Origin: an uncultured Rhodospirillales bacterium
Lineage (GTDB): Bacteria; Pseudomonadota; Alphaproteobacteria; Acetobacterales; Acetobacteraceae
DNA length: 46,718 nt
Direction: 5' to 3'
NCBI GenBank assembly: GCA_903865895.1
Contig: CAIPLM010000092.1
Coordinates: forward strand, 1 to 46,718
The notes under the pieces were generated by a model. That model was given only the letters and a program-made list of their open reading frames with translations, did no database searches and had not been told where the DNA came from. How positions within the stretch are numbered: the stretch's first letter is position 1; every line of letters starts with the position of its first letter. Position numbers and translations under genes: made by a program. Shown here one piece after another: positions 30,891 through 46,379 of the stretch.

Positions 30891-30952
30891 GCTTGCCAGC
30901 CTGGGGTGTCCGGTTCAAACCTGCAAGCCACCCAGTTACCAGCGAGCCCGCC

Positions 30953-32347
30953 ATGACCCGACCCCCCAACTCTTCGCCAGTCGATACCGTGATCGCCGCC
31001 GCCGCCCAGTTCCTCGGCGAGCGCATCACCACCAGCACCGGCCTGCGCGACCATCACAGCCACGGCCAGGACACCCAAACCCCGGTGATGCCCGATGCGG
31101 TGGCCTTCATCGAGACCACCGAGGAGGCCGCCCGCCTGCTCGCCCTGTGCAACCAGCACGGCGTCCCCGTCGTGCCCTACGGCACCGGCACCTCGCTCGA
31201 AGGCCATGTCACCCCGGTCCGCGGCGGCATCAGCGTCGATATGTCGCGCATGACGGCAGTGCTCGAGGTCAACCAGGCCGACATGGATTGTCGGGTCCAA
31301 CCCGGCCTCACCCATCGCAGCCTGAACGCTCATCTGCGCGACCAAGGCCTGTTCTTCCCGGTCGACCCCGGCGCCGATGCCTCGCTCGGCGGCATGTGCG
31401 CCACCCGCGCTTCCGGCACCAACGCGGTGCGCTACGGCACCATGCGCGAGAACGTCATGGGCCTCACCGTGGTGCTGGCCGACGGCCGCGTCATCAGCAC
31501 CGGCGGGCGCGTGCGCAAATCCTCCACGGGCTATGACCTCACCCGCCTCTTCGTCGGCTCCGAAGGCACCCTCGGGATCATCACCGAGATCCAGCTCCGC
31601 CTGCACGGCATCCCAGAAGCCGCGAGCGCCGCGATCTGCCAATTCGATACGCTGGGCGACGCGGTGGAATCGGTGATCGCCATCATGCAGGCCGGTATCC
31701 CCGTCGCCCGCATCGAGCTGCTGGATGATGTGCAGATGGGCGCCTGCATCGCCTATTCGAAGCTCGACGAGATGAAGCCGGCCCCCACCTTGTTCTTCGA
31801 GTTCCACGGCACCCACGCAGGGGTGGCCGAGCAGGCCAAGCAGGCCGAGGAAATCACCGAGGCCTACAACGCGCGCGGCTTCCGCTGGGCGACCGAGGCC
31901 GAGGAGCGCAACCGCCTCTGGCGCGCCCGGCATGATGCCTATTGGGCCGGCCTCGCGCTGAAACCGGGCCATCAAGGCATCGCCACCGACGCCATCGTGC
32001 CGATCTCCCGCCTCGCCGAGGCCGTGCTCGGCACCCAGGCGGATATCCGCGACTCCGGCCTCACCGCCCCCATCGTCGGCCATGTCGGCGACGGCAATTT
32101 CCACACCGTCATCCTGGTCCCCCCGGAGCCCGGCGGGCTCGAGCGCGCCTGGGAGCTCGACAAGAAGATCGTCGGCCGCGCGCTCGCTCTCGGCGGCTCC
32201 TGCTCCGGCGAGCACGGCGTCGGCCTCGGCAAACGCGAATTCCTCGAACTCGAACACGGCGCGGAAACCCTGGCCGTCATGCGCTCCCTGAAAGCCACGC
32301 TCGACCCCAAGGGAATCCTCAACCCCGGCAAGATGTTCCTCAACTGA
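30953..32347 (+). CDS. FAD-binding 2-hydroxyacid oxidase/dehydrogenase (GlcD/D-lactate dehydrogenase type)
   Basis: This 464-residue flavoprotein of the vanillyl-alcohol-oxidase fold probably oxidises a D-2-hydroxyacid and passes electrons to the respiratory chain. It has the FAD-binding [13 protein letters not shown] at 73-85, [20 protein letters not shown] in the middle, and the C-terminal FAD-oxidase domain with GHVGDGNFH and [12 protein letters not shown], as in GlcD and mammalian LDHD. The start at 30953 is preferred to an in-frame start 60 nt upstream, which gives a non-family N-terminus. It is divergent from the ATPase gene. Confidence 0.92.
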
Positions 32348-32829
32348 GCCGCATTTATATTCGAAGTCGCAACAAATAGGGCGCGCAAAACCGCCCACCG
32401 CAATGCCCGATTTTCGCGATCGGGCGGCGCGCGGGCGGTGGATTCACGGATCGCATGCCACCGCGCGACGATCCGCGCCGCGGCATGCGCGACGCCCCAC
32501 GCACCCCGGCGCCGCATGGCCGGCAGCGCGCCGTCCTCGGCCTCGCCCACGTCCACGTCCACGTCCACGTCCCGCCGGGCGCGCAGCCGCAGCTTGCCGC
32601 CCCGCAGAAAGCGGGTGAGCCAATCCGTCCGCGGACCAGCCGGCGGCATGGCTTGCGCCCCCTCGGCCACAGGGCGCGGCGTACCTGCCTGCGCGGAGGC
32701 TTCGGCGAACAACGCCTCGCCCCGCAACAGCCGCGCAAGAATCTCCCATAACAAGGCAAGCGCCCGCGCAAGCTGGGCGGGGAGGCCCAGCGGCAGGCGT
32801 AGCTCAGGGAGGGAAGCGCGTTCGTTCAT
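31972..32829 (-). CDS. Unrecognised protein behind an SOS-type promoter
   Basis: I do not recognise this product. It starts MNERASLPELRLPLGLP, followed by a hydrophobic/amphipathic helix (about 18-36) and a basic segment around LRLRARR. A DVDVDVDV run encoded by a hexanucleotide repeat comes next, and then an Arg/Ala-rich part. Third codon positions are GC-rich for about the first 140 codons, which supports real coding in the space outside the neighbouring gene. The frame then runs 125 codons antisense into the FAD oxidase gene before stopping, so the true C-terminus is uncertain and a frameshift is possible (another frame stops at 32355). A perfect GTTC-N7-GTTC box lies 13 nt before the ATG. 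Predicted DNA-damage-inducible gene of unknown function. Confidence 0.45.
   Translation of the reverse strand: MNERASLPELRLPLGLPAQLARALALLWEILARLLRGEALFAEASAQAGTPRPVAEGAQAMPPAGPRTDWLTRFLRGGKLRLRARRDVDVDVDVGEAEDGALPAMRRRGAWGVAHAAARIVARWHAIRESTARAPPDRENRALRWAVLRALFVATSNINAAQLRNILPGLRIPLGSSVAFRERMTARVSAPCSSSRNSRLPRPTPCSPEQEPPRASARPTIFLSSSQARSSPPGSGGTRMTVWKLPSPTWPTMGAVRPESRISAWVPSTASARREIGTMASVAMP
32547..32572. repeat. Hexanucleotide tandem repeat (CCACGT, four copies plus two bases)
   Basis: CCACGT is repeated four times and followed by CC. On the minus strand it encodes alternating Asp-Val in the unrecognised SOS-type gene. The unit is a multiple of three, so slippage would change length by two residues and keep the frame. 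Confidence 0.85.
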
Positions 32830-32836
32830 GATTTGA

Positions 32837-32865
32837 ACAATAGAACACACACAGAACGCGCGCAA
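32837..32865 (-). promoter_or_regulatory. Promoter with LexA (SOS) box in the spacer; leaderless start likely
   Basis: On the minus strand a -35-like TTGCGC (32860-32865) and a -10-like TATTGT (32837-32842) are exactly 17 nt apart. The spacer contains GTTC-N7-GTTC (32843-32857), the SOS operator form of alphaproteobacteria. A further GTTC lies at 32835-32838, overlapping the -10. The start codon ATG at 32829 lies 7 nt after the -10, where transcription would begin, so the mRNA is probably leaderless. The elements are seen directly; LexA binding is inferred from the known consensus. Confidence 0.65.
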
Positions 32866-33003
32866 GAGAAAAATTGCACGTCGGTGAGATTTTTTGCGGT
32901 CCGGACCGATGCCCGAGGGAATGCCACCCACCCGGCAGCGCGGGAAGGGGGCTTGCCGCCGCGCACGCCTTCGGCGGAAACTCCCGCAACCCAGGAGCCC
33001 GCC

Positions 33004-34629
33004 ATGTCCGCTATCCGTGTCTTCGTCGCCCGCCGCGTCATCACCATGAACGCCTCGACACCCTTCTGCACCCATGTCGCGGTGAAGGACGGCCGCATCC
33101 TCGGCTACGGCAGCGCGGCCGACGTCGCGGAATTCGGCCCGGCCGAGCTCGACACCCGCTTCGCCGACAAAATCATCATGCCCGGCTTCATCGAGGGTCA
33201 CGGCCATGCCGTGGAAGGCATGATGTGGCGCCAGCCCTATGTCGGCTTCTACGACCGCACCGCGCCCGACGGCACGCCCGCCCCCGGCCTCAAAAGCATC
33301 GAGGAAGTCGTCGCCCGCCTCCAGGCCCATGAGCGCACCCTGACCGACCCCGCCGCCCCCGTGGTCGCCTGGGGGTTCGATCCGATTTTCTTCGGCGGCC
33401 GGCGCATGTCGGTGGCCGATCTCGATCGCGTGTCCTCCACCCGCATGGTCCTGGTCGGCCACGTCTCCGGCCATATCCAGAACGCCAATTCCCGCGTCCT
33501 CGAGGCCTGCGGCTTCTCGCGCGACAGCAATATCGACGGTCTCCTGCGCGACACCGCCGGCAATCTCACCGGCGAGCTGCAAGGCCCCGCGGTGATGGGC
33601 CGGGCCAGCCGTGCCACCGGCGATAACGGCCTGATGCGGGTGCAGGACGTCGATGCCCTGATGGATTACGGCCGCGTCGCCAGCCGCGTCGGCGTCACCA
33701 CCTCGACCGACCTCGCCAACGCCCTCAGCGAGGACAACGCCGCCTCACTCCGCGCCGCCACCGACCGCGCCGATTTCCCGCTCCGCCTGGTGCCCGCCAT
33801 GCGCGCCCGCGAATACACGCTGGAAGCCGGGCTCGCCCGCATCGCCGAATTGAAGCGCCAATCCACCGCGAAACTCCATTTCGGCATCGTCAAGCTGGTC
33901 GCGGACGGCTCGATCCAGGGCTTCACCGCCCGGCTGCGCTGGCCCGGCTACCATAACGGCGCGCCGAACGGCCTCTGGTACATCGCCCCCGCCGAGTTCG
34001 AAGGCATCGTCACCGCCTATCACAAGGCCGGCCACCAGCTGCACATCCACACCAACGGCGACGAAGCCAGCGAACTCGCCACCGAAATGGTCGGCCGCGC
34101 CATCGTGGCCCACCCCCGCGCCGACCACCGCCACACCCTCCAGCACTGCCAGATGGCCGATGCCGCGATCTTCAAACGCATGGCCAATTTCGGCATGTGC
34201 GTGAACCTATTCGCCAACCACATCTGGTACTGGGGCGAACAGCACCGCGCGCTGACCATGGGCCCGAGCCGCGCCGAACGGCTGGACGCCTGCGCCTCCG
34301 CCCTCGCCGCCGGCGTGCCCCTCGCCATCCATTCCGACGTCCCGGTCACCCCCGTCGCCCCCCTCTTCACCGCCTGGTGCGCCGCCAACCGCCTGACCTC
34401 GACCGGCCGCGTGCTGGGCGAAGCCGAACGCATCACCGTGCCCCAGGCGCTCTACGCCATCACCCTGGGCGCCGCCTACACCCTCAAAATGGACCACCTG
34501 ATCGGCAGCATCGACGTCGGCAAATACGCCGATTTCGCCGTGCTCGATGAAGATCCCTACACGGTGCCGACCGCGGCGCTGAAGGATGTGAAGGTGCATG
34601 CGACCGTACTGGGCGGGGCGGTGTTTTAG
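33004..34629 (+). CDS. Metal-dependent amidohydrolase (Amidohydro_3, YtcJ-like)
   Basis: This 541-residue TIM-barrel amidohydrolase has an N-terminal composite sandwich domain. The metal-binding GHGH is at His66 and His68. The probable carboxylated lysine lies in KLVADGSIQG, later histidines in HIHTNGDEA and DHRHTLQH, and the catalytic Asp in HSDVPVTP. The C-terminus GSIDVGKYADFAVLDEDP is typical. It resembles YtcJ-type hydrolases of N-acyl or cyclic amide substrates. The start follows a GGAG site (33,000 region); the frame is open for 57 codons upstream but that part does not match the family. It may work on products of the peptide-importer locus. Confidence 0.9.
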   Translation: MSAIRVFVARRVITMNASTPFCTHVAVKDGRILGYGSAADVAEFGPAELDTRFADKIIMPGFIEGHGHAVEGMMWRQPYVGFYDRTAPDGTPAPGLKSIEEVVARLQAHERTLTDPAAPVVAWGFDPIFFGGRRMSVADLDRVSSTRMVLVGHVSGHIQNANSRVLEACGFSRDSNIDGLLRDTAGNLTGELQGPAVMGRASRATGDNGLMRVQDVDALMDYGRVASRVGVTTSTDLANALSEDNAASLRAATDRADFPLRLVPAMRAREYTLEAGLARIAELKRQSTAKLHFGIVKLVADGSIQGFTARLRWPGYHNGAPNGLWYIAPAEFEGIVTAYHKAGHQLHIHTNGDEASELATEMVGRAIVAHPRADHRHTLQHCQMADAAIFKRMANFGMCVNLFANHIWYWGEQHRALTMGPSRAERLDACASALAAGVPLAIHSDVPVTPVAPLFTAWCAANRLTSTGRVLGEAERITVPQALYAITLGAAYTLKMDHLIGSIDVGKYADFAVLDEDPYTVPTAALKDVKVHATVLGGAVF

Positions 34630-45788: not shown

Positions 45789-46379
45789 ATGCCCGAGACC
45801 GTGCCGACCGATCCCTTCGACTTCTTCCGCGCCTGGTTCGCCGAGGCCGAGGCGACGGAGGTGAACGACCCCAATGCGATGACGGTGGCGACCGCCGACC
45901 AGGAAGGGCATCCCTCCGCCCGCATCGTGCTGCTCAAGGACTGGGACCGCGCCGGCTTCGTCTTCTACACCAACAAGGAAAGCCGCAAGGGGGGCGAACT
46001 GCGCGAGAACGCGCGCGCCTGCCTGCTGTTCCACTGGAAGGGCCTGCGCCGCCAGGTCCGCATCGAGGGCCCGGTGCTGGACGTGACGGACGCCGAGGCC
46101 GACGCCTACTACAACTCCCGCCCGCGCGGCTCGCGGGTGGGCGCCTGGGCCTCCATCCAGTCCCGCCCGCTCGCCAATCGCGACGAACTTTTGGGGCGCA
46201 TCGCCGAATACGAGGCGAAATACCCGGGCGAGGAGGTGCCGCGCCCGGCCCATTGGTCCGGCTACCGGGTGGTGCCGCAGTATTTCGAATTCTGGCAGGA
46301 CATGCCGTTCCGCCTGCATGACCGCAACGTCTTCACCCGCCAGGGTGACGCCTGGCAGCACGGCAAGCTGTTCCCCTGA
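45789..46379 (+). CDS. pdxH: Pyridoxamine 5'-phosphate oxidase
   Basis: PdxH is an FMN enzyme that oxidises pyridoxamine or pyridoxine phosphate to PLP. The 196-residue product has ATADQEGHPSARIVLLKDWD, FYTNKESRKG, LFHWKGLRRQVRIEG, SRVGAWASIQS and the C-terminal WSGYRVVPQYFEFWQ, all diagnostic. The start MPETVPTDPF has GGAG 8 nt upstream; a longer frame starts 48 nt earlier with a non-family N-terminus. It supplies the cofactor for PLP enzymes such as the one at 21704, but no functional link is implied. Confidence 0.96.
   Translation: MPETVPTDPFDFFRAWFAEAEATEVNDPNAMTVATADQEGHPSARIVLLKDWDRAGFVFYTNKESRKGGELRENARACLLFHWKGLRRQVRIEGPVLDVTDAEADAYYNSRPRGSRVGAWASIQSRPLANRDELLGRIAEYEAKYPGEEVPRPAHWSGYRVVPQYFEFWQDMPFRLHDRNVFTRQGDAWQHGKLFP

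Follow-up and report, generated by a model that had tools for sequence, protein, structure and literature searches.

A putative LexA operator in the promoter of a lineage-restricted, probably leaderless orphan gene of an uncultured Acetobacteraceae bacterium

Does a small orphan gene on contig CAIPLM010000092.1 of an uncultured Rhodospirillales bacterium (Acetobacteraceae; assembly GCA_903865895.1) belong to the SOS response? The question is raised by the motif GTTC-N7-GTTC, which lies on the minus strand between the putative -35 and -10 hexamers of this gene. The window, that is, the whole stretch of DNA analysed, covers positions 1 to 46,718 of the contig (46,718 nucleotides, nt), and its genome (G000) was compared with those of its four congeners (G001-G004), of which G001 is a sister species. 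The site is probably a LexA operator lying in the spacer of a promoter that drives a lineage-restricted, probably leaderless gene, and it is conservation in the sister species, not the box alone, that makes the case for such an operator.

The original prediction placed TTGCGC and TATTGT 17 nt apart on the minus strand, with GTTC-N7-GTTC in the spacer between them and an ATG 7 nt after the -10, and all of these are found exactly as described (Table 1). The gene has an ortholog in the sister species (E 6e-30), around which both neighbours are syntenic, and the promoter of that ortholog keeps TTTTTCTCTTGC, both GTTC half-sites, the 17-nt spacing and the 7-nt gap, with positions 1, 2, 5 and 6 of the -10 identical between the two genomes. 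Within the box, 8/8 half-site bases are kept and 5/7 spacer bases have changed. A third GTTC, reported to overlap the -10, is indeed present in the window but reads GTCC in the sister species and is thus not conserved. By position and spacing, both kept in the sister species, the box would overlap the putative promoter. A leaderless start, also part of the original prediction, fits the locus because no Shine-Dalgarno sequence was seen by eye and the 7-nt gap is conserved, and transcription probably starts at or beside the ATG.

Interpretation of the motif as an alphaproteobacterial SOS box agrees with the rest of the genome, in which boxes of the same class precede the genes for LexA (TIGR00498) and RecA (TIGR02012), both proteins scoring above cut-off, UvrA and DnaE2, both partial sequences that match their profiles strongly, and two proteins that resemble ImuA but fall below the family cut-off (E 4e-16 and 8e-12). 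The exact boxes of these six SOS genes sit 22-195 nt 5' of the start codon. In the excerpted text of PMC3323433, the motif published for the alphaproteobacterial class is GTTC-N7-GTTC, and an excerpt of PMC12700426 gives the same motif for Caulobacter, in which 47 SOS genes were identified. The two ImuA-like genes are separate (L098 and L110), each with its own LexA-type box.

Across the five genomes (G000-G004, 26.9 Mb in total), the extended pattern TTG-N5-box-TAN3T, which was composed post hoc after the site had been seen, occurs at two sites, the window gene and its ortholog in the sister species, with about 0.014 expected and none among controls. A narrower form of the box, GTTC-N5-ATGTTC, is clearly enriched over the reversed pattern in the window's genome (26 vs 0) and the sister species (20 vs 1), with counts of 9 vs 1, 12 vs 1 and 7 vs 1 in G002, G003 and G004, respectively. 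The box of the sister-species ortholog, GTTCGCGCTATGTTC, matches this narrower form.

Several results weigh against a LexA-controlled gene at this site. GTTC-N7-GTTC occurs 104 times in the genome, compared with 67 occurrences of the reversed pattern and about 94 expected from composition, and twice in the window, where 0.67 boxes are expected and 16/100 shuffles reach two; because these frequencies are close to chance, no conclusion can be drawn from the core motif by itself. Nor does the window's box fit the narrower form. In the comparison with other such sites and with the recA and lexA operators, proposed at the outset, the sites were found and the window's spacer scored below the known operators. 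Using a box-spacer weight matrix built from six known SOS operators, the window's spacer scores 0.86, compared with 3.57-7.82 for those operators in leave-one-out scoring and 2.45 for the sister-species ortholog, and 6% of random spacers do at least as well, a share that falls to 2% and 4% when two other matrices are used. The 93 loci fetched from the listed box sites gave 99 distinct exact boxes among the 104, the window's included, and among these the window's box ranks 38th-41st by spacer score with the three matrices. Taken alone, it would be a weak member of the LexA operator class. The putative hexamers match the sigma-70 consensus at 3/6 (-35) and 4/6 (-10) positions by hand count, and a strict scan requiring at least 9/12 matches to TTGACA/TATAAT and at least 4/6 per hexamer called no promoter here. 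No convincing match to the gene was found in G002, G003 or G004, leaving one of four congeners with the gene, and with a single ortholog found, conservation amounts to one pairwise comparison. The open reading frame (ORF), too, has an unsettled 3' end: it stays open to codon 286 in the window's genome (low end 31972) and to codon 275 in the sister species, in each case running to a stop that lies antisense to the oxidase gene. The window's other box, at 45996-46010, was rejected as an operator and is attributed to chance, since it scores -4.67 to -11.2 and falls within an ORF that by eye looks pdxH-like.

Conservation of the box and the ORF in close relatives, the proposed check on the prediction, was found for both in the sister species, the three other congeners being without the gene. 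The oxidase gene is present in all three of these; in the 1.5 kb past it, no box was found in G002 or G003 and no such gene in G004, where the translation was read. Among 40 relatives searched, eight genomes match at E <=0.1, and only the window's own genome and the sister species are convincing. A search of 397 genomes of the bacterial family gave matches in 19 at E 0.01, and the 14 loci read from the 17 besides G000 and G001 were all judged spurious (L045, L047 and L052 unread; with 12 candidates scored per genome, a distant relative could be missed). The genome_contigs search returned one locus, the gene of the sister species, and no homolog was found in viral contigs, phages or plasmids.

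The start region of the window gene resembles that of one other locus. With up to two mismatches, the 23-nt pattern GTTCTANNGNNCAAANCATGAAC occurs at four sites in the five genomes, two loci each in the window's genome and the sister species, and at none in controls; the pattern was derived from three of the four sites, its sole new find being the sister-species copy of the second locus. This second locus (C284 of G000, L107/L229; C290 of G001, L228) keeps GTTC-N7-GTTC in both genomes; on one side of it lies an SLT_2 transglycosylase (PF13406), on the other an orphan ORF, conserved in both genomes, that includes a hydrophobic stretch. No homology was found between the window gene and the second-locus orphan. 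With up to one mismatch, the pattern matches five of the 397 family genomes (G000, G001, G191, G118 and G122); the window gene compared with the G122 protein gave E 0.12. In G118, which belongs to another genus (L232, C3), an exact box GTTCATCTAATGTTC lies just 5' of an ORF beginning MNWYRRKPARHTMSLHNTITP, a possible further candidate SOS gene.

Three other explanations of the locus were considered. It is unlikely that the gene is real and its GTTC-N7-GTTC a chance or degenerate match in a promoter that is constitutive or otherwise controlled. The near-chance frequency of the core motif and the weak spacer score favour this explanation, and the second half-site abuts the -10, so that selection on the promoter might have kept part of it unchanged; yet the half-sites are retained in full in the sister species although most of the spacer between them has changed, and the box there fits the stricter pattern, which outnumbers its control 20 to 1 in that genome. 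It is more improbable still that the element is a longer operator of another regulator, as might be read from the sharing of GTTCTANNGNNCAAANCATGAAC with the second locus and its extension past the -10 and start codon, outside the LexA box, or that it serves the divergent amidohydrolase gene. The derivation of GTTCTANNGNNCAAANCATGAAC from three of its own four sites and the retention of GTTC-N7-GTTC at both loci argue against another regulator, and the distance to the minus-strand ATG is fixed, while the box and the amidohydrolase gene are 147 nt apart in the window and 189 nt apart in the sister species (hand count).

A third explanation, that no protein is made, so that the ORF would simply reflect the G+C-richness of the sequence and its conserved part would act as DNA or RNA, appears very improbable. 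It draws on the other frames of the region, which are largely open as well, on the lack of an early stop in the ORF and on the searches, which found no homolog beyond two genomes. Against it, third positions change most in this frame, accounting for 35/76 differences over 93 codons (9/20 in the first conserved block, 10/12 in the second). The ratio of nonsynonymous to synonymous substitution rates (dN/dS) between the window's genome and the sister species is 0.35 over the 93 aligned codons, 0.21 over codons 1-43 and 0.06 over codons 63-83, with 0.04 for the oxidase gene in the same genome pair. In both blocks this frame has the lowest dN/dS of all six, compared with 0.49-2.77 (block 1) and 0.12-5.03 (block 2) in the other five.

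The product, as originally claimed, matches no known family, with nothing found in Pfam, NCBIfam, PHROGs or PADLOC and only seven matches among PDB sequences (best E 0.33), taken as chance. An AlphaFold model from the two-sequence alignment, with an overall mean predicted local distance difference test score (pLDDT) of 63, has one helix, spanning residues 16-47, and a short helix at residues 69-75 of low confidence. The long helix had been described as hydrophobic; it is instead computed to be amphipathic, with a moment of 0.44 and a highest 18-residue hydropathy of 1.33, and it has no clear membrane span, no dedicated membrane predictor having been applied. The product is basic, with a net charge of +7 over 86 residues. 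The suggestion of an undescribed DNA-damage response gene is supported by the conservation of box and ORF in the sister species together with the absence of a known family. A hairpin near 32360-32470 was rejected as a terminator, 23/200 shuffles folding equally well.

Table 1. Features of the putative operator, its promoter, the orphan gene and the adjoining genes in the window.
Feature	Position	Strand	Remarks
TTTTTCTC tract, immediately 5' of -35	32866..32873	-	identical in G001 ortholog
-35 hexamer TTGCGC	32860..32865	-	TTGCAA in G001; 3/6 match TTGACA
LexA-type box GTTC-TGTGTGT-GTTC, GTTCTGTGTGTGTTC	32843..32857	-	occupies most of 17-nt promoter spacer
17-nt promoter spacer	32843..32859	-	between TTGCGC and TATTGT
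-10 hexamer TATTGT	32837..32842	-	TAAAGT in G001
Third GTTC, overlaps -10	32835..32838	-	GTCC in G001, hence not conserved
Start codon ATG	32827..32829	-	7 nt (TCAAATC) past -10; no Shine-Dalgarno by eye; probably leaderless
Orphan gene, conserved coding part (codons 1-95)	32545..32829	-	69% identical to G001
Predicted amphipathic helix, residues 16-47	32689..32784	-	pLDDT ~83-90 over residues 21-40, ~70 at ends
Second conserved block, residues 63-83	32581..32643	-	dN/dS 0.06
FAD-linked oxidase (GlcD-like), convergent neighbour	30893..32347	+	PF01565, PF02913
Amidohydrolase, divergent neighbour	33004..34629	+	PF07969; ATG 147 nt from box

With a LexA operator at this position, LexA sitting in the promoter spacer would keep RNA polymerase off, and the promoter would open once RecA filaments, formed on damaged DNA, had induced LexA to cleave itself. 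Translation of a leaderless mRNA starting at or beside the ATG would then yield a small basic protein, in which a long amphipathic helix is followed by another, short conserved block. LexA binding, induction and the leaderless start, taken together, are considered likely. An operator fitted exactly into the promoter spacer of a gene that is probably leaderless is a simple, testable design. It could be guessed, with considerable doubt, that the product works on the surface of the membrane, or on the machinery of division or of the wall, during DNA repair, in a role like that of SidA; any other role in the damage response is as open.

Reading of the genes behind the boxes of the genome, restricted to boxes with at least four A/T in the spacer, identified an orphan small-protein family behind many of them (family A; e.g. 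L087:846-1235, L073:771-1160 and L152), with the consensus MxPAPxxLQxxLRRLVLRLxLML...GHRHRARLxRELA...DAGRRALVRR...GRCTG. Its profile gives 40 matches in the window's genome and 12 in the sister species, fragments and weak matches included, corresponding to about 37 and about 9 copies, and none in G002-G004. No further genome matched among 150 drawn from the bacterial family (28 candidates scored per genome), a draw that evidently lacked the sister species; no copies were found in plasmids or viral contigs, and representatives gave no Pfam or NCBIfam family above cut-off. A box with at most one mismatch lies within 110 nt upstream of 30/37 copies in the window's genome (21 exact), the remainder having boxes with two mismatches (two copies) or three (five copies, like most shuffles), and of 9/9 copies in the sister species (8 exact), a count that omits one internal fragment and two weak matches. 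Among shuffled upstream sequences, 166/2200 reach this level. The count for the window's genome includes 19/37 copies that were discovered via the box; 11 of the other 18 qualify, one of which is also in the box list.

Seven family A copies of the sister species have flanks in common with copies of the window's genome and were therefore inherited rather than recently moved. The seven ortholog pairs have dN/dS of 0.31-0.78, indicating weak constraint. The model of the family has four helices (mean pLDDT 74), and a fold search with it against the PDB gave a best E of 0.66. At the 3' end of the family A sequence (e.g. L087, L150 and L202), the heptamer CGATGTA is invariant in 45/45 distinct places, and CGA accounts for 8/955 Arg codons before it; this invariance suggests a constraint at the DNA or RNA level. 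Hairpin-like sequence was seen by eye after the heptamer in many copies.

A second amplified family (family B, ...GALLYALLGW...VEWVAVPAPWRNGRLLPRRH...RGPP; e.g. L119, L002, L019 and L206-L225) has 39 matches in the window's genome, 33 in the sister species and none in G002-G004. Exact boxes lie upstream of 6/20 copies read, three of the six being seeds picked for their box. By eye, the DNA of most family B copies read looks conserved past the stop codon, and one copy of family A, L198, has a tail that looks like family B.

A further amplified family of small orphan proteins, family C, occurs in two other genera of the bacterial family, some copies having LexA boxes; its consensus is MN..NPFTGLK...ALExLFAQWxAGTLP followed by a Pro/Ala/Arg-rich tail. 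With 13 candidates scored per genome, there were 13 matches in G122 and 12 in G008 (both genus g5) and 10 in G071 (genus g68) (L230, L248-L279). Exact boxes were found at 3/13, 1/10 and 2/9 of the copies read, respectively; one fetched G008 locus was without a match, and one G008 and one G071 match were unfetched. The G008 box overlaps the start codon. Most of the G122 and G008 copies are, by eye, without a Shine-Dalgarno sequence and often begin CAAACC-ATGAAC, resembling the window gene; by eye, the copies of genus g5 appear mostly leaderless. Searches with five members found no family in Pfam and nothing close to the cut-off in NCBIfam.

The members of families A, B and C resemble the window gene in being small orphan proteins whose N-terminal part has a helical or hydrophobic stretch, and LexA-type boxes precede many family A copies and some copies of B and C, as well as the window gene. 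The three families are multi-copy, whereas the window gene is single-copy. Its homology to families A and C was not detected by hhalign (probabilities of 0.8% and 0.2%, respectively), and its scores on the A, B and C profiles are reached by 43-368/1000 shuffles (333-976/1000 for its ortholog), the best case being the G122 part of family C (43/1000; 425/1000 for the ortholog). A stretch that to the eye looked alike in the window gene and family C was discounted, since shuffles score as well. What the window gene appears to share with the three families is only the type of regulation and the general build.

It is about an even call whether this lineage has remodelled its SOS response around small orphan proteins that evolve rapidly, with family A, part of family B, the window gene and the second-locus orphan all controlled by LexA. 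If so, dozens of unknown proteins, helical and basic, would be induced together by DNA damage, and the bulk of the SOS regulon would consist of amplified unknown genes and not of repair genes. This wider result matters more than the single locus, as control of dozens of amplified orphans by LexA would mean that the SOS response does something large beyond repair in this bacterium, and the promoter boxes offer a handle on what these genes do.

Many damage-induced genes are without known function, as stated in the abstract of PMC13384398, and because of this the conserved pair of box and orphan gene is a direct candidate for such a gene. A division inhibitor of the SidA/DidA type is a small transmembrane protein that binds FtsW or FtsN and blocks division. 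SidA and DidA are small damage-induced division inhibitors of Caulobacter, SidA being linked to damage through LexA, in the excerpted text of PMC4211646; the predicted helix of the window product is amphipathic, and the comparison would extend to role at most. As far as the excerpted account of the Caulobacter crescentus LexA regulon goes (PMC12700426), that regulon and the box-bearing genes described here have the operator class GTTC-N7-GTTC in common, and recA, imuA, uvrA and lexA occur in both. An SOS-controlled orphan would be a known kind of gene, and the surprising part is the presence of dozens of amplified orphans behind a like switch. Unlike in the Caulobacter regulon, many of the box-bearing genes of this lineage belong to amplified orphan families.
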